The translations under genes and the position numbers were made by a program. DNA of 34,863 bases from Desulfobulbaceae bacterium (GTDB lineage: Bacteria > Desulfobacterota > Desulfobulbia > Desulfobulbales > Desulfocapsaceae). Position 1 is the first letter of the stretch; each line of letters begins with the position of its first letter. Location: contig WBUQ01000036.1 of assembly GCA_008933635.1 (NCBI GenBank), positions 1 through 34,863 on the forward strand. The letters are read 5' to 3'. A model generated the notes under the pieces. That model worked only from the letters and a program-made list of their open reading frames with translations, did no database searches and was not told the DNA's origin. Below, piece by piece: positions 24,910 through 33,194 of this stretch.

Positions 24910-26901
24910 TCAGAACCGGTAGGTGGTAATCAGATAACCGAGATGGGTCTCGTAATCATTGTCCAGTCCTGCTCCGCTGAGAACAAACGATGATGTGACG
25001 TAGCGGTAATTGCTGTACCTCCAGTCGTCCAGATTGGATTTCTCGTAGGCATATCCCAATGTTATAGACCATTGATCGGTAAGGCCATAGATGCCTCTGA
25101 TGCCGGCCTGCGTCTTGTAGTAGTCGTCTGCCTCGGTCACCGTCCCCAGAGGGGCGCCGGCGGCCGCAGACCTGACGAATTCGATATTGCCGTCGAGCAT
25201 CTGGTAGTCTGCGTTGATAACCATTTCCAGTTGCGGCATGATCGGTACGGTGACGCTGCCGCCAACGACAAAGAAGTCATAGCTGGTTTCCTGGCTCCAG
25301 TTGTAATTACTGGAATTGGGCGGGGTGAATGGATATGCCACGCCCGGGTTGTAGCGGCGGGAATTGAAATCGCTCTCGGTAAATTCGTAGCCGGTGTATG
25401 CATTCAGGCGGGCCTTGGCCGGCAGCTGAAAATCTGCATCGAGATAGATTTCATGCCGGATATCCTCCTGCAGACCGAACATGGTGGCATCGTAATCGTC
25501 AAACATTATTCCATAGTTCAGGCCCAGCCCGAGACCTTCCCATGGAATGGTTTCAAATTCCAGTCTGGCTTTATACCGATTTTTGGAGGCGTAATCAGCG
25601 CGGGTGAAGAATTCGTTGATGAGGCCGTCGCCTTCAAGGGTCTCTTCGTCGAAGTCGGAATCGGAGTTCCGGTTCAGATATTCCAGCCTGAATGTGCTGC
25701 TCACCCAGTCCAGCGAGGTATTCTTCAGTTCCGCAAAGAGCAGGTTGTCAAGCGTTGTTTCGGCGTCCTCTCTGGTGCGGTCGGTAAAAGACAATTCATA
25801 GCCGCCCTTGAGTTTGTTGACCTTGCTCAACCGGTAATCGGCGTCCAGGCTGGCCTGATGCTTGTCGTACTCGAACAGGCGGCCGGCTCGGATATCTTCA
25901 CCGACGACAATGATTTCATCCGACTGGTTGTCGCGGTCGACGTAGCTGTAGGACAGCCGGGTGTCCAGCGCATCGTTCCACTGCGAGCTCAGGACCGCGC
26001 TGCCCCGGAAATAGCGGACATCGCCGTCAAATTCGTTGTCGGCCACAGGTGAGACTATTCGCTGGAAATTCGAGAAGTCTGTTTCACTGTTATTAGCGTT
26101 ATATACAACCTTCACTGCCAGCAGGTTGTCCGCCGACAGCCTTTGGGTCAGCCGGCCGCTGAAGTTGTAGCTGTAATTGTCGTTCGGCGTGCTGTATTCC
26201 TCCAGTTCGATTCCGTTGAAAGTGGAGAGGACTTCGTTGTCATTGTCGAAATGGCTGTAGCCGGCGGCAAAGACCGCGGTGGTTTCCTTGCTCCGATAGC
26301 CGCCCTCCAGCGTCGTGTTGTAGGTGGTGTAATCGATCGGCATGGGCAGTTCGAAACCCGAGTTGGCAACGAGACCCCAGGGCATGATGCCGTCTTTGCG
26401 CTGTTGATCTGCCGAGACCTTGAAATAGAAAGGATTGTTGGTGTCAATGGTGACCTGGCCGCCGAGCGTTTCCACATCCACACTGTAATCGAACGTGGTC
26501 CAGGTGCTCATCGGCGGAATCGAGGTCGGGATAATCAGGAAGTTGCTGCCGATGCCCGTTGCAGGAGTCATTGCGTCGCGAGACAACTGATGGGTCAGCT
26601 CGTCATAAAAGATCTCGCCCTTGAAGACGCCGAAGAGTCCGCCCCTCAGCTCGTAGTACTGATCATCCAGCGCCGGATCTTGCACGGTCACGCCGACAAA
26701 GTTGGTATCGCTGTCGGTCAGCAGGTCAAGGCTTCCGAAAAGTCCGTCGCTCATGTCGCGGTATTCGTCGAATTTTGCACTTTCGTCATCGACAAAATGA
26801 GTCGCCCGGGCCCCCACATTCAGTTCACCCCGGACTTCGGCAAGACACAGGGAGGGAGCGGAAAGCGGCAGAGCCAAGAGAATATAGATCATCCGTTTCA
26901 T
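24910..26901 (-). CDS. MtrB/PioB family outer-membrane beta-barrel
   Basis: A 663-residue outer-membrane protein. The signal peptide is about 1-21 (IYILLALPLSAPSLCLAE). The rest is a long run of alternating aromatic/polar beta strands ending in the C-terminal aromatic TTYRF, typical of barrel insertion. It belongs to the decaheme-associated MtrB/PioB family, which sheathes a periplasmic multiheme cytochrome through the outer membrane so electrons can cross. I see no Cys in the mature protein, so the N-terminal CXXC pair of Shewanella MtrB is absent. ATG 26899-26901 has AAGGAGG six bases upstream. It follows the decaheme gene by 11 bases. No outer-surface cytochrome gene (MtrC/OmcA-like) is in the operon. 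Confidence 0.9.
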   Translation of the reverse strand: MKRMIYILLALPLSAPSLCLAEVRGELNVGARATHFVDDESAKFDEYRDMSDGLFGSLDLLTDSDTNFVGVTVQDPALDDQYYELRGGLFGVFKGEIFYDELTHQLSRDAMTPATGIGSNFLIIPTSIPPMSTWTTFDYSVDVETLGGQVTIDTNNPFYFKVSADQQRKDGIMPWGLVANSGFELPMPIDYTTYNTTLEGGYRSKETTAVFAAGYSHFDNDNEVLSTFNGIELEEYSTPNDNYSYNFSGRLTQRLSADNLLAVKVVYNANNSETDFSNFQRIVSPVADNEFDGDVRYFRGSAVLSSQWNDALDTRLSYSYVDRDNQSDEIIVVGEDIRAGRLFEYDKHQASLDADYRLSKVNKLKGGYELSFTDRTREDAETTLDNLLFAELKNTSLDWVSSTFRLEYLNRNSDSDFDEETLEGDGLINEFFTRADYASKNRYKARLEFETIPWEGLGLGLNYGIMFDDYDATMFGLQEDIRHEIYLDADFQLPAKARLNAYTGYEFTESDFNSRRYNPGVAYPFTPPNSSNYNWSQETSYDFFVVGGSVTVPIMPQLEMVINADYQMLDGNIEFVRSAAAGAPLGTVTEADDYYKTQAGIRGIYGLTDQWSITLGYAYEKSNLDDWRYSNYRYVTSSFVLSGAGLDNDYETHLGYLITTYRF

Positions 26902-26912
26902 GGGTTTCCTCC

Positions 26913-27815
26913 TTATCTGATAAACCGAAGGCCCGCGCCGTCCGGTGAATTGGAACCATGGATGGCCGAATGACAACGCAGGCACTCAAAGCGGCTGGTA
27001 AACGAGGCTTTGCTGTCGTACGGGGTGCCGGGGTGACGCGACCAGTCATGGCAATTCTGGCACAGTTGGGGAATCCGCTCTGTCAGCAATTTTGCGTGAC
27101 TGCTGCCATGGACCGTATGGCAGCTCTGACAATCCTCCTCGACCGGTGGATGTTCCCACACCGACGGTCCGCGCTTGTCGGCATGGCACTTGAAACACAA
27201 CTCCCTGGAATCGTCGGCCTTGACCATATGTTTACTGAGGCTGCCGTGGGGGGAATGGCAGGAAGAACAATTGACTTTGCCCTCGAGTATTGGGTGATGC
27301 GACCGCTTGTTCGCCTCAATCTTGACATCCTTGTGACAGCTGAAGCAGACCTCGGGCTCCCTGGCTTTCTGCCTGCCGCCGACATGCAGGTCATGGCAGG
27401 AATCGCAGGACACGTCATTCCGTTTATGCACTCCCATCTCCCACAGGTCCATGCCCGGGGTTTTTTCGTGGCAGGTGAGGCACTTCGCCGACTTGGCCGC
27501 CGCATCGACATCCGCATTGAAGGAGAAGATATCGACGTCGCGACCACCGCCCTTTTCGACATGCTTTGCTCCTCCGCCATGACAGGTTTCGCATGCGTCC
27601 TGTGATGCCGGGCCTTTTATCGCCTTCTTGAAATGGACTGATTTCGAATAGCTCTCATATTGGGCCTCGTGGCATTCCTTGCACGTCTCCGCACCAATGA
27701 ATCCCATGCCGGGATCTGCCATCTGCAGATTCTCAGGAGCGTCCATGGCCTGGGAGAGAGAGAACAGCAACAGGCCCAGCGGGAATAGAACAACACAGAT
27801 GTATTTTCTCTTCAT
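26913..27815 (-). CDS. DmsE/MtrA-type periplasmic decaheme cytochrome c
   Basis: A 300-residue exported protein with signal peptide (about 1-24) and ten CXXCH heme motifs: CKECH, CETCH, CLTCH, CDSCH, CFSCH, CSSCH, CFKCH, CQSCH, CQNCH and CLRCH. Length and heme count match the DmsE/MtrA family, which threads into an MtrB-type barrel as the wire across the outer membrane. Several extra His (for example RSHHP, HTVHGSSH) can serve as distal ligands. ATG 27813-27815 has GGAGG four bases upstream. Genes before and after are in the same operon. Direction of electron flow (outward metal reduction or inward oxidation) cannot be told. Confidence 0.95.
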   Translation of the reverse strand: MKRKYICVVLFPLGLLLFSLSQAMDAPENLQMADPGMGFIGAETCKECHEAQYESYSKSVHFKKAIKGPASQDACETCHGGGAKHVEKGGGRDVDIFSFNADVDAAAKSAKCLTCHEKTPGMDLWEMGVHKRNDVSCDSCHDLHVGGRQKAREPEVCFSCHKDVKIEANKRSHHPILEGKVNCSSCHSPHGSLSKHMVKADDSRELCFKCHADKRGPSVWEHPPVEEDCQSCHTVHGSSHAKLLTERIPQLCQNCHDWSRHPGTPYDSKASFTSRFECLRCHSAIHGSNSPDGAGLRFIR

Positions 27816-27868
27816 AGCGCCTCCAGGATTTTCTCTGTGATTATCAGCCAGCTTGTGCGCATCTCCTG

Positions 27869-28699
27869 TCATTGAGCGGTCTTCACCAGGCGAAAACCGA
27901 GGGCGTGATGACCGAAATCGGGTGAAAGGCCCACGCGATGGGAGCTTCTTATCCCCAGGGGCCCGTTGCTCCAGCCGCCACCGCGCATGACGCGGTATTC
28001 GCCTGCGCCCCTGTAAACCGGGTTGTCTTTGGGGAGTTTGGTGTATGCCTCGCTGTTGTAGACATCCTCGCACCACTCCCAGACATTTCCCAGCATATCG
28101 TTCAAGCCGTAGGCATTGGCCATGAAACTGCCAACCGGGGCCGAAACCGCAAACCCGTCGTCACAGATGAAGGTCGTCCACTTGGGCCATTGCTTTTTCG
28201 CGGTCAGGTCGCCCACATTGGCATACGTGCAGGCCTCGTCAGGATTATCCCCCCAGAACCGACTCTGCGACGACCCGGCGCGGGCTGCAAATTCCCATTC
28301 GGCTTCGGTAGGCAACCTGTAGGACTGGCCGGATTGCTGTGAGAGCCATTTGGCGAAGGCGGCGGCATCCTCCCATGACACATTGACTACCGGTTGTCTG
28401 CCGTCGTTGAGGGTGGAGTCTTCGGATGTGCCGCTATTGTGCTGGGGAGCGAATTTCTTGAATTGATCGTTGGTGACTTCAAATTTTCCAATGTAGAAAT
28501 CGGTTACACATGCTTCATGCACCGGTCTTTCGTTGAGGTCGCCGTCGCCTGCCGAATCGCCCATCTGAAAGCAGCCGCCTTTGACAAGGACAAGTTCCAT
28601 CCCCGTCGAGGTGTCCGCGTAAGGGGTTTCGGCGCTGGCTGCTACGGGATATGCCAAAGAGAAGAGTATCAGGAACGTACCGGGCATTTTCAAAGTCAT
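27869..28699 (-). CDS. Exported FGE-sulfatase (SUMF1) fold protein, no catalytic Cys
   Basis: A 276-residue protein with signal peptide (about 1-23, SLAYPVAASAE) and a full formylglycine-generating-enzyme fold: FQMGD, KFEVTNDQF, PVVNVSWEDA, RLPTEAEWEFAAR, NVWEWCEDVY, VMRGGGWSN and GFRLVK. In true FGE two Cys follow the RGGS segment; here that stretch is GGWSNGPLGIRSSHR, with none, so formylglycine synthesis is not expected. Five other Cys are scattered and could form disulfides or bind metal. ATG 28697-28699 has AAGGAGG six bases upstream. It is first in the operon with the decaheme cytochrome and the porin, so a role in assembling or extending the conduit is inferred; a ligand-binding or nonheme-iron enzyme is the alternative. 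Confidence 0.88.
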   Translation of the reverse strand: MTLKMPGTFLILFSLAYPVAASAETPYADTSTGMELVLVKGGCFQMGDSAGDGDLNERPVHEACVTDFYIGKFEVTNDQFKKFAPQHNSGTSEDSTLNDGRQPVVNVSWEDAAAFAKWLSQQSGQSYRLPTEAEWEFAARAGSSQSRFWGDNPDEACTYANVGDLTAKKQWPKWTTFICDDGFAVSAPVGSFMANAYGLNDMLGNVWEWCEDVYNSEAYTKLPKDNPVYRGAGEYRVMRGGGWSNGPLGIRSSHRVGLSPDFGHHALGFRLVKTAQ

Positions 28700-29531: not shown

Positions 29532-30431
29532 CTATTTCATCAGCAGCAGGCTGAGGGCCATCAGCGCCATTCCCGCCACCAGGCCGTAGAGGCTGTCGTG
29601 TCCCTTGCCGTAGGCCCGGCTGGTGGGCAGCAGTTCGTCGAGGCTGATGTAGACCATGATTCCGGCAACCCCGCCGAACAGCACCCCCATCAGTTCGGGC
29701 GGGATGACGCCGCTGTCGTTGCCGAGGAAGAACCGGATGCCGATATAGGCGATGACCGCGCCGACCGGCTCGGCCAGACCGCTCATCACCGACCAGAAGA
29801 AGGCGGTGCTGCGTCTGCCGGTGGCGTAGTAGAGCGGCACCGAGACGCTGATGCCTTCCGGGATGTTGTGCAGGGCCACCGCCACGGCGATGGCGAGCCC
29901 GACGCTGGGGTCCTCGAGGGCGGCGAGGAAGGTGGCCAGTCCTTCCGGAAAATTGTGGATACCGATCGCCAGCGCGGTGAAGAGTCCCATCCGCAGCAGC
30001 CTGCGGTGGTGCTCATGGTGGAAGGGATGGCTGAGGAGGGCCGTCGTGCCGGGCTCGCTTGCGGGGAGATCGGGCAGCGGCAGCGAGGGGTCGTGCAGCG
30101 GCCTGGTCTGGGCCTCGGTCGGCGTTTCGTGCGGGTTCTCGGCCGTGGGGATGAGATTGTCGATCAGGCCGATCAGCAGCATCCCGCCGAAGAAGGATCC
30201 GGCATTGACCCAGTGCCCCCAGTAATCGCCGTAGCGGAGGACCAGCGCATCCGTGCCCTTGACGAAGATCTCGACGAAGGAGACGTAGAGCATCACCCCG
30301 GCCGAGAAGCCGGTCGCCACCGAGAGGAAACGATAGTCGGTCCGCTTCGCGGTGAAGGCGATGATGCTGCCGATCCCCGTCGCCATGCCGGCAAAGACGG
30401 TGAGTCCCAGTGCGATCCAGACATCGTTCAT
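29532..30431 (-). CDS. zupT: ZIP family divalent metal transporter (ZupT-like)
   Basis: A 299-residue inner-membrane protein with about eight helices. The two ZIP metal motifs are HNFPEG (helix 4) and HNIPEG (helix 5), as in ZupT, which takes up zinc and other divalent metals. The cytoplasmic loop between helices 3 and 4 is long and has a His cluster ([10 protein letters not shown]), a common metal-sensing element. Start ATG 30429-30431 gives the usual N-terminal helix; AGGAG lies 13 bases upstream, rather far. Upstream is a candidate promoter with an inverted repeat over its -35, so repression by a metal sensor is possible. Monocistronic. Confidence 0.9.
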
Positions 30432-30579
30432 GGCAGTGTCGCGGCTCCTGAAATGGAGAGGGGGTGCCAGGCGGGCATCTGCCCGTGCCGGTATCAGACC
30501 GCTTGGCGAGAAAGGGGCAGGCGTGCGATGCGCGGGGAGCCGAGAGTTCTGCCGCCTTCCCTGATTGCTGACAATCGTC

Positions 30580-30608
30580 ATATTCCCCGATCACCGTCAC
30601 GGTGTCAA
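30580..30608 (-). promoter_or_regulatory. Candidate promoter for the ZIP transporter with operator-like repeat
   Basis: Minus strand TTGACA (30603-30608), 17 bases, GAATAT (30580-30585). CACCG-TCA-CGGTG (30592-30604) is a perfect inverted repeat lying in the spacer and touching the -35, where a repressor would block polymerase. The leader would be about 145 bases. Confidence 0.4.
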
Positions 30609-30868: not shown

Positions 30869-31153
30869 ATGTCAGGATGCGGATGCGGCTGCGGGAGCGG
30901 TTCAGGCGGGCCATTTTCGAAGGGAAGGGATCTCGTGGAGTTTGTCTTTCATGCCCATGGCGGGGCGATCAGGGATCAGAAGATCCTGCAGGGGCCGCTG
31001 GCGACTGTCTGCCAGGGGTGCGGCACGCCCTTTGCCCTCGAGACGTACCTGGGCACCTGTCCGGGTTGCGGCGGAGTGCACGCTGTCGCCCCGATGGCGC
31101 CGACGTCTGCGAACATCCAGTTCGCCGGCAGCGATTATCGCCTGCCGCTGTAG
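30869..31153 (+). CDS. Small Cys-rich zinc-ribbon protein
   Basis: A 94-residue protein. The N terminus is MSGCGCGCGSGSGG, three Cys alternating with Gly (Cys4, 6, 8). A zinc-ribbon follows: CQGCG (Cys48, 51) and CPGCG (Cys64, 67), CX2C-X12-CX2C. No signal peptide or membrane segment. AGGAG lies six bases before the ATG, which sets this start over an upstream in-frame one. The gene stands behind a CRP/FNR-type operator. The family is not one I can name; metal handling or redox/nitrosative response is a reasonable inference from the Cys content and the operator. Confidence 0.75.
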   Translation: MSGCGCGCGSGSGGPFSKGRDLVEFVFHAHGGAIRDQKILQGPLATVCQGCGTPFALETYLGTCPGCGGVHAVAPMAPTSANIQFAGSDYRLPL

Positions 31154-31317
31154 GCTGCGACGGTCACCGGCCCTGCCGCGCGCCCGGTTGCGCCGGATGT
31201 CGCAGGGGGCCGGTGCCAGGCTGACGCCGCCAGCCCGTCGTCCTTCGCTCAGGCATTGCCGTGCCGGGCCTTCGACGCAGGACGGTGGCGCATCTCCATG
31301 ACTGGGAGGGACGACTC

Positions 31318-31671
31318 GTGACAGTATTGCACCTGCTTCCGGCCATTGCCGGGTACATCCTGCTGTCGCTCCATTTCTTCAGGGCTGACAATCACCCGGC
31401 AATGATGGGCACACTGCTGCTGATCGCGGCGATGCTCATCCGTCGTCCCATCGTGGCTCGTCTGCTGCAGGTCGCTCTGCTCATCGGTGCCGTCGAGTGG
31501 GTGCGTACAGCTGCTTCGCTTGTGCTGATCAGAACAGAGATGGGCGAACCTTTTCTCCGTCTTGCCATCATCCTCGGTGCTGTAGCGATGGCCACCGCCC
31601 TCGCAGCCCTGGTCTTCCGGACGTCCAAGGTCAGATTGTATTTCAGGATAGCGCCGGAAGAAAAGTGGTGA
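31318..31671 (+). CDS. Small four-helix membrane protein, unknown
   Basis: A 117-residue protein with about four hydrophobic helices (roughly 2-20, 27-43, 48-64 and 78-99) and a basic C-terminal tail ending KVRLYFRIAPEEKW. Not a recognised family. The GTG start at 31318 has GGGAGG eight bases upstream; the frame also runs up to 31261 but that part lacks a ribosome site and is not membrane-like. It follows the zinc-ribbon gene by 164 bases and may share its transcript. Confidence 0.6.
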   Translation: MTVLHLLPAIAGYILLSLHFFRADNHPAMMGTLLLIAAMLIRRPIVARLLQVALLIGAVEWVRTAASLVLIRTEMGEPFLRLAIILGAVAMATALAALVFRTSKVRLYFRIAPEEKW

Positions 31672-32027
31672 TCGTCCTTCCGGGGCCAGTCTTTTCGGTG
31701 GTGAAACACCACGCCGGCATATCGCCTGCACTCCGCTTACCCCCCAATGAGAACAGGGCGGCCTTTTCACAGATTACTCTCTGTTATTTCAAGGTCATAC
31801 AGGTCTTTTCCAGTTTCCGTTCCTTGAATTCGCCTGAATAATTCTTAGCTTAAACTGATGATAGAGAGCATGGAACGTGCGGGTGAGCGACTTTGCCGGC
31901 ACGACCGTCAACAACCGGCTTCCGTGGTTCCGGCTGAACTGCGGGGAGGCTCCGCTCTTTATCGATATGATGCCCGGGAGGAGAGAGCGTTGGTCCTCTC
32001 ATCGGGCAATACGGAGGGAGGTGGCAA
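31672..32027. other. 356-base region before the mirror-Cys gene
   Basis: No gene I can support. A 53-codon plus-strand frame (31870-32031) ends in ATGA overlapping the next ATG, and another frame (31877-32080) overlaps that gene; neither has a good ribosome site. A candidate promoter is listed separately. The leader, if real, is about 170 bases. Confidence 0.4.
31824..31851 (+). promoter_or_regulatory. Weak candidate promoter for the mirror-Cys gene
   Basis: TTGAAT (31824-31829), 16 bases, TAGCTT (31846-31851) in an AT-richer patch about 175 bases upstream of the 32028 start. Both hexamers are partial matches. Confidence 0.3.
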
Positions 32028-32183
32028 ATGATACTCAACGACACCCTGCAAAAACATCAGGATTGTCTCGAGCAATGTGATCTCGAGCGCATCGCATGTG
32101 AACTTGACCGGGAAAATGACCAGACGTGCGACGCCGAAATGAAAAACTGTGAGATTAATTGTGACTTGGATTATGGTCCATAA
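32028..32183 (+). CDS. 51-residue acidic protein with six mirror-spaced cysteines
   Basis: A short frame with a strong ribosome site (AGGGAGG, six bases before ATG 32028). The product has Cys13, 17, 24, 34, 41 and 45, spaced CX3C-X6-C-X9-C-X6-CX3C, which is symmetric about its centre. The 4- and 7-residue steps put the three Cys of each half on one helix face, so the chain can fold as an antiparallel helical hairpin with pairs 13-45, 17-41 and 24-34, or bind a metal between the helices. About 14 acidic against 4 basic residues. No signal peptide. Twin-CX3C hairpins are known from mitochondrial small Tim proteins; I know no bacterial family of this kind. Real translation is likely from ribosome site and pattern but unproven. 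Confidence 0.6.
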   Translation: MILNDTLQKHQDCLEQCDLERIACELDRENDQTCDAEMKNCEINCDLDYGP

Positions 32184-32346
32184 TGGCTGGGAGGAGATGG
32201 CGGAACAACAGATCCATGGGTATGTGGTTGGCCGTGAAGGGGATGGCGTGAAGATTCACCTGACCCATCTTCATTGATCTGACGGCAGACTGACATTTCT
32301 CATCCTGTGCTGCCTCCGTATATAGCGCCGGATCAACGTGCAATAC

Positions 32347-32352
32347 TATAAT
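32347..32352 (+). promoter_or_regulatory. Consensus -10 before the coiled-coil gene
   Basis: TATAAT at 32347-32352, 33 bases before ATG 32385. No good -35 lies at 16-18 bases, so an activator or an extended element would be needed. Confidence 0.35.
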
Positions 32353-32384
32353 GGTCGAGTTATTTCTGGTATCGGGACAACAGG

Positions 32385-32855
32385 ATGAACTATCAGACAA
32401 TCGAGAATATACTGAAAAAGATCAACTACCTCGAAGCAGAGCTGGAAATCCAGAAACAGATACTCTTTTCGCTCCCCTCCGCCAGCAGGGAGGAGATCGA
32501 AAACACGATACACACCATCGCCGCACGCAAGAACGATATTGAAAATCTGCGCCAGCAGATCAACGAACAGAGTCCTGAAGAATTCGCTCGAATTGTCGCA
32601 TTTGAGGAAGCCTCAGCCAGGTTCATGGGCATTGGCGCTGAGAAAAAATTTACCGCGGTATTTCACAGGCACGCCGGTCAGGAATGCGATCTACGGCTTG
32701 TTGACGGGACGATCATCGATTGTCTTGTCAAGGCTCGTGACGAAAAAGGCGGTTGGACGATTATGACCGTTGATGGTGAGGTCGTGCAGTTTACCTGCGA
32801 TCAGGTTCTGGAGCAGCCTGCCAGCGATGACCCGGGTCACCTGCTGCGCTATTAG
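32385..32855 (+). CDS. Coiled-coil plus small beta-barrel protein, unknown
   Basis: A 156-residue cytoplasmic protein. Residues 1-65 form a helical hairpin/coiled coil (YLEAELEIQKQILFSL; ARKNDIENLRQQINEQ). Residues about 85-145 form five short strands (LRLVDGTIIDCLV, WTIMTVDGEVVQF) like an Sm/SH3-type barrel. This resembles small RNA- or peptide-binding folds but no motif proves it. The ribosome site is weak (CAGG touching the ATG). It follows the mirror-Cys gene by 201 bases on the same strand. Family not recognised. Confidence 0.72.
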   Translation: MNYQTIENILKKINYLEAELEIQKQILFSLPSASREEIENTIHTIAARKNDIENLRQQINEQSPEEFARIVAFEEASARFMGIGAEKKFTAVFHRHAGQECDLRLVDGTIIDCLVKARDEKGGWTIMTVDGEVVQFTCDQVLEQPASDDPGHLLRY

Positions 32856-32909
32856 CTTGTCTGCAGCCTAGCGAGCCGCTGACCGCACATTCTGTGCCTG
32901 AGCCGATGA

Positions 32910-33194
32910 TCAGAACAGGAATTTGTGGAAAATATCATCGATTGTCGCCTGATGGATTCCCTGTCCCTTCAGGACTTCCTTGGCGTGTTCCGCGAATTCC
33001 ATCCGTTTTGCCGCTGCCTTGCTCTCGAGAAGGCCCTGCTGGACGAAGCAGTTGATCAGCGCCGTGGTGTCGGAACCTTCCAGCGCCGCGGCTTTTTTCA
33101 CAGTTTCAAACAGCTCGGCAGGCATTTCGAGGGTTACCGTGGTGGTCGGCTGTCCTGCGTACTCCGTCTGCAACTGACACAGTTTTTCCTTCAT
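32910..33194 (-). CDS. Ribbon-helix-helix-like small protein (orphan)
   Basis: A 94-residue protein with TTTVTLEMPAELFETVKKAA around residues 17-36, the strand-helix pattern of ribbon-helix-helix (CopG/Arc-like) DNA binders, followed by a helix (ALINCFVQQGLLES) and a C-terminal helical tail. GGAGG lies seven bases before ATG 33192-33194. No toxin gene accompanies it on either side, so it is an orphan regulator or a stand-alone remnant of a toxin-antitoxin pair. It could control its own promoter or the divergent ade gene. Confidence 0.7.
   Translation of the reverse strand: MKEKLCQLQTEYAGQPTTTVTLEMPAELFETVKKAAALEGSDTTALINCFVQQGLLESKAAAKRMEFAEHAKEVLKGQGIHQATIDDIFHKFLF

Follow-up and report, generated by a model that had tools for sequence, protein, structure and literature searches.

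Among described proteins, several helical families with facing Cys residues come close to the microprotein treated here. In the published description of Csp3 (PMC5171941), Cu(I) is bound within a cytosolic four-helix bundle by CXXXC pairs, each on a single helix, and by Cys residues of neighbouring helices; the Csp proteins have also been reviewed (PMC7558416). For reduced Tim9 and Tim10, the source describes one Zn2+ held by the twin CX3C motif with its full set of four Cys, and oxidised small Tims contain a helix-loop-helix (PMC3759932). Plant alpha-hairpinins are defined in the published account by the motifs CX3C-X4-20-CX3C and CX3CX3C-X4-20-CX3CX3C (PMC11591084).

The gene reported here occupies positions 32028-32183 (plus strand) of the window, that is, of the whole 34,863-nt stretch of Desulfobulbaceae DNA that was analysed, and its product carries six Cys in the order CX3C-X6-C-X9-C-X6-CX3C. 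According to the description of Csp3, both proteins share a helical build, predicted for the microprotein, with Cys on the inner face and single-helix CXXXC pairs alternating with Cys of neighbouring helices; Csp3 is cytosolic, as the microprotein probably is, and its apo crystal is reported as free of disulfides (PMC5171941). Each Csp3 chain is, however, a whole four-helix bundle with 18 Cys in MtCsp3 and one more in BsCsp3 as given there, whereas the microprotein would form one hairpin with six. The twin CX3C motifs on two antiparallel helices of the small Tims are matched by Cys 13/17 and 41/45, and this layout of four CX3C Cys makes reduced Tim9/Tim10, as far as the source describes them, a precedent for a Zn2+ site (PMC3759932). 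In contrast to small Tims, which are chaperones of the mitochondrial intermembrane space, the microprotein is bacterial, has an extra inner Cys pair and keeps 23-25 residues between its CX3C motifs. With the alpha-hairpinins it shares the helix-loop-helix and the facing CX3C pairs, and their six-Cys motif is equally mirror-symmetric (PMC11591084), so the symmetry itself is not unprecedented. These plant antimicrobial disulfide peptides, as described, have X3 before the third Cys where the microprotein has X6, and the latter is an acidic protein in which no signal peptide is visible. The published motifs rule out an identity with alpha-hairpinins, because the microprotein reads CX3C-X23-CX3C or CX3C-X25-CX3C with an inner X6. 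Judged by its spacing, it is a new variant of Cys-lined helical hairpins.

The gene and its homologues

The ORF starts with an ATG at 32028, its stop codon ends at 32183, and its 156 nt encode the 51 residues MILNDTLQKHQDCLEQCDLERIACELDRENDQTCDAEMKNCEINCDLDYGP. Cys residues stand at positions 13, 17, 24, 34, 41 and 45, and the positions of the outer, middle and inner pairs sum to 58 each. The mirror-symmetric code that an initial annotation had pointed out is present on this strand and, across all six frames, occurs nowhere else in the window. Simulation of 100 windows of equal length and with the same nearest-neighbour base frequencies produced mirror-symmetric six-Cys groups of any spacing at 0.05 per window and the exact code not at all. 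The strong ribosome site claimed earlier was recovered as GGAGG (32017-32021, plus strand), 6 nt 5' of the ATG. The frame had also been called too short for default gene callers, which is probably wrong, as 156 nt exceed the default minimum gene length of 90 nt in Prodigal.

A peptide scan of contigs from 84,980 species yielded 28 candidates and three relatives; as the scan was keyed on two conserved stretches, relatives with different ends would escape it. The three homologues belong to Desulfobulbus sp. Tol-SR (JROS01000042.1), an uncultured delta proteobacterium MAG (CAIQWD010000013.1) and Desulfopila sp. IMCC35006 (NZ_SWCM01000003.1), whose proteins are 75, 71 and 51% identical to the one in the window. 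The Tol-SR and MAG genes likewise have a GGAGG before them, the Desulfopila gene an AGGAG. A profile search found full-length members in 4 of 93 genomes of the family, namely the window's own, where the gene is single-copy, one of its four genus mates and two of another genus, a patchy spread (2/5 genomes in the window's genus, 2/15 in the other). Thirteen further family genomes gave partial weak matches only (E up to 0.1), and a second search recovered the same four members. Searching the order, with 257 genomes including the family, added no member, and the class-level search returned an identical tally (257 genomes). A phylum sample of 395 genomes contained only the window's own member and one false match (in G424), a Cys-rich stretch of different spacing inside a 1042-aa frame. 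Among viral contigs, plasmids and phages, no match covered most of the microprotein, the best partial ones having E values of 5 and 9. Across 43 loci examined, the code was confined to copies of the four members.

The initial annotation had held that stops or lost Cys in homologous DNA would refute the gene. Such decay was looked for, and none was found in the three true homologues. Of ten weak matches with stops, eight were read (all but G104:C27 and G084:C3), and all eight proved to be non-homologues. Most of the remaining new weak matches (E up to 1) span just a portion of the query, within a longer frame. Six of them stem from one related genus: at L008, L015, L040 and L041 the matching frame runs antisense to a small hydrophobic protein, and L042 and L043 are frames without the code, which is likewise absent from L014 and L021, where stops lie inside the match. 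The hydrophobic protein is itself conserved (about 50 residues, SSYTMGGFIH...IQGRRL; 1486-1650 of L008 and 1486-1632 of L015, both minus strand, and also in L040 and L041), and its antisense mimics the start of the microprotein, which gives rise to false profile matches.

None of the four members matched a family in Pfam, NCBIfam or PHROGs above chance, and PDB sequences gave no match at E up to 10; in the Pfam search (E up to 10), HMMER filters discard most weak matches. Josephin, PI3K iSH2, DUF371 and Defensin_2 (Pfam, E 0.025-0.29), phrog_12294 (E 0.94) and NF047531 (NCBIfam, E 4) were rejected as weak matches, each to one member of the four. DUF326 (PF03860), which we take to be the profile for Csp, was absent among the matches of the four members at E up to 10 and from all four member genomes (0/4), with a positive control in Bacillus subtilis (1/14). 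Lacking DUF326, and with two predicted helices and six Cys, the microprotein is not a Csp; nor is it a small Tim, since at E up to 10 the Pfam matches of the four members include no small Tim family and no PDB sequence matched. Literature searches of partial coverage returned no bacterial protein of this kind and no paper on the microprotein, which represents a small, rare family, unnamed in the libraries searched.

Selection on the microprotein

The six Cys and the spacing within both arms are retained in all four members. In the middle the spacing is X9 in three members and X11 in the MAG member (9, 9, 11 and 9), and because this change sits at the centre, the mirror symmetry is preserved in the X11 member too. 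The window's gene differs from that of Tol-SR by 34 base changes, 18 of them synonymous (pS 0.64, pN 0.13); over the six member pairs, pS ranges from 0.62 to 0.95. The comparison of homologues proposed in the initial annotation, for conserved Cys and synonymous substitution, finds both: Cys are conserved in 4/4 members, and pN/pS lies at 0.16-0.43 over the six pairs. Cys codons swap between TGT and TGC at four of the six positions and never become another residue. Of the 51 columns, 21 are invariant, and the probability that these include all six Cys by chance is 0.003. The existence of three homologues, the retention of the Cys and arm spacings, and synonymous sites near saturation together mean that the code is not due to chance. 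On this comparative sequence evidence, 32028-32183 is a real protein-coding gene.

A short intergenic ORF might otherwise be open by chance, or its translation might act as a leader for the gene downstream, and many Cys might serve a Cys-sensing leader. The conservation of the microprotein refutes the chance frame, purifying selection also acts on non-Cys residues, the similarity stops at the stop codon, and the downstream genes differ between the four loci, which leaves this explanation with a negligible probability.

Outside its ends, the microprotein is variable save for the Cys and a few positions. Residues 4-9 and 45-51 contain 12 of the 21 invariant columns, with the motifs NDTLQK at the N-terminus and CD[LF]DYGP at the C-terminus. 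Metal binding offers no explanation for this strict conservation (NDTLQK, DxDYGP), which points to a partner. The Cys-metal core could then be structural only, and the invariant ends could attach to an enzyme or a regulator whose gene lies elsewhere. We regard such a partner-binding function as unlikely, although it would account for where the invariant columns lie; within about 10 kb, the four loci have no gene-specific neighbour in common.

Predicted structure and location

In the AlphaFold2 model of the window protein (32028-32183, plus strand), residues 2-27 and 31-49 form helices joined by a turn at 28-30 (mean pLDDT 83.5, pTM 0.59). The model of the MAG member has helices at 3-26 and 32-51 and a loop two residues longer (mean pLDDT 81.6, pTM 0.57); both runs used one four-sequence alignment and are not independent. 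The predicted turns, 28-30 in the window and 27-31 in the MAG protein, coincide, or nearly so, with the mirror centres at 29 and 30, and on an ideal helix each three-Cys set spans 40 degrees. These calculations are in line with the earlier claim that the spacing puts all six Cys on the inner face of a helical hairpin, and the microprotein probably folds as a two-helix hairpin. Foldseek found no PDB match for the window model at E up to 10 and for the MAG model only matches at E 7.0 to 9.6 (phage Aqs1, ING4, a ribosome chain). In a structural comparison with four chains, a Rom dimer chain scored best (Z 6.0, 50 residues, rmsd 3.2). Rom (Rop) is a two-helix hairpin of about 55 residues, but it shares 10% identity with the microprotein over the alignment and is an RNA-binding dimer not known to have a Cys-lined core. 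The likeness is weak evidence, perhaps of a common helical-hairpin arrangement and nothing more.

The family is acidic (pI 4.05-4.76), with 12-14 acidic residues per member and an equal range, 12-14, of A, V, I, L, M, F or W. Together with the six inward thiols, this composition suggests that metal, not a greasy core, holds the fold. His residues number 1, 2, 0 and 3 in the four members, and therefore His is not a constant ligand. Inspection by eye revealed no hydrophobic segment, N-terminal or other, in any of the four and, in keeping with the initial annotation, no signal peptide; the location is thus probably cytosolic.

Cys pairs at equal levels of a hairpin would also suit a ladder of interhelical disulfides. 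The protein might accordingly be disulfide-locked or redox-switching, forming up to three such bonds upon oxygen exposure or export by an unrecognised route, and in the accounts cited the oxidised small Tims (PMC3759932) and the alpha-hairpinins with CX3CX3C-X4-20-CX3CX3C (PMC11591084) offer precedents. We consider it improbable, given that none of the four members has an N-terminal hydrophobic segment discernible by eye. The group to which the hosts belong is mostly anaerobic, with reduced cytosolic thiols that would stay so. Metal rather than disulfides on the Cys is a fair guess.

Genomic context and upstream region

The gene is flanked in the window by a frame of hydrophobic character (31261-31671) and an orphan of 156 aa (32385-32855), has an O-methyltransferase on one side and a formate/nitrite transporter on the other in Tol-SR, adjoins an IS110-type transposase in the MAG, and in Desulfopila has two GPR1/FUN34/yaaH-type transporters nearby. 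Neighbours were compared as frames of at least 50 aa across the 34.9-kb window and across the 19.5-19.9 kb that surround each of the other genes (about 10 kb per side or less). No specific neighbour was common to the four loci, the microprotein being the sole ortholog-like match in all of them; the remaining cross-locus matches were apparent sensor, response-regulator and ABC families (labelled from Pfam matches of window genes, ABC by reading) and other frames of the microprotein gene itself. The gene stands alone, and there is no metal gene among constant neighbours, which counts against a metal role.

The orphan at 32385-32855 (plus strand), which has no Pfam family, recurs with 67-72% identity in three of four genus mates; in the 1.5 kb around it there, only the 156-aa gene aligns and the microprotein code is absent. 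Farther upstream in the window, a ZupT zinc transporter (29532-30581, minus strand) diverges from a zinc-ribbon-like frame of 94 aa (30869-31153, plus strand; beginning MSGCGCGCGSGSGG; weak Pfam matches, C-terminal part), and the two are a possible zinc-handling pair. Being near the microprotein in the window only, they are not functional evidence for it. Other features of the region are a MtrB/PioB-type outer-membrane porin adjoining a multihaem cytochrome c (24910-28076, minus strand), which looks like a conduit for extracellular electron transfer, and a weak CopG/RelB-like antitoxin candidate, below the cut-off (32910-33194, minus strand), beside which no toxin gene stood out. An FGE-sulfatase-domain protein (27869-28699, minus strand) precedes the porin-cytochrome region.

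That last gene lies 3.3 kb from the microprotein, and its fold includes Cys-modifying enzymes. A short peptide with six Cys and conserved ends could in principle be a RiPP precursor, for example of the six-Cys SCIFF type, but this appears very improbable. NCBIfam, which presumably contains the SCIFF/ranthipeptide precursor profile, listed neither that profile nor any other for the four members at E up to 10, save one unrelated family (E 4, one member). Among the neighbour ORFs scanned, a subset of those at the four loci, none belonged to a radical SAM family, no FGE-type gene was seen among those scanned at the other three loci, and the conserved part is distributed along the whole chain.

The MAG member shows 71% identity to the window's protein, against 51% to that of its own genus mate. 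This affinity, the patchy spread and the unrelated loci are, from four short sequences, a hint of horizontal transfer. A home on a mobile element was rejected, with no viral, plasmid or phage member and the transposase beside the MAG member only.

DNA similarity between the window and Tol-SR extends from about 60 nt before the ATG to the stop codon (blastn match 31969-32181). The conserved 5' block (31968-32027, plus strand), delimited by the alignment with Tol-SR, has 42 of 62 columns identical, versus 49/106 further upstream, 54/110 after the stop and 47% in shuffled sequence. A weakly supported RNA hairpin, TGCCCGG...TCGGGCA (31971-32008, plus strand), is predicted before the ribosome site; fold z-scores of the four 5' regions are -0.78 (window), -1.43, -1.48 and -2.49, and Rfam had no match for the leader. 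It is a possible, unproven RNA element. The leaders of the window and Tol-SR have a CCTCT stretch between two GGAGG-like stretches, and alternative pairing could free or hide the ribosome site. A consensus search of 31600-32900 found no sigma-70-like promoter and four terminator-like sites, versus 1.0 expected. One of them (31941-31955, plus strand), right upstream of the 5' block, would as a consensus match fit a separate microprotein transcript.

Possible function

By analogy and from the models, we tentatively favour, at slightly less than even confidence, a cytosolic Cys-lined hairpin that would hold soft metal and serve in buffering or sequestration. The stand-alone gene would yield a soluble acidic microprotein folding as an antiparallel two-helix hairpin, whose mirror spacing would bring Cys13/Cys45, Cys17/Cys41 and Cys24/Cys34 face to face on the inner faces. 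The host is probably an anaerobe with a reduced cytosol, where one four-thiolate site could arise from the two CX3C pairs and a second, two-thiolate layer from Cys24/Cys34. Such sites may bind soft metal ions, Zn2+ or Cu+. As hydrophobic residues are otherwise few in the core, the metal would probably drive or lock the folding of the hairpin. Two hairpins may further dimerise in the manner of Rom to a four-helix bundle that encloses 12 Cys. Such a protein would likely buffer or sequester metal.

In a more speculative extension, which as a whole is rather doubtful, the family would be a new type of minimal metal store or buffer, in which two hairpins pair into a four-helix bundle and point 12 thiols inward, so that each gene supplies half a Csp; it would be encoded as a stand-alone unit in Desulfobulbus-related bacteria, possibly moved horizontally and perhaps controlled by the 5' RNA leader.

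Regardless of metal, the microprotein adds a small gene family that is nameless in the libraries searched. Should metal binding hold, the microprotein would provide a very small natural example of a helical metal site lined with Cys, with a spacing code simple enough to be legible by eye, a natural model for designed metal hairpins, and a route by which Desulfobulbus-related bacteria may keep soft metals in the cytosol.
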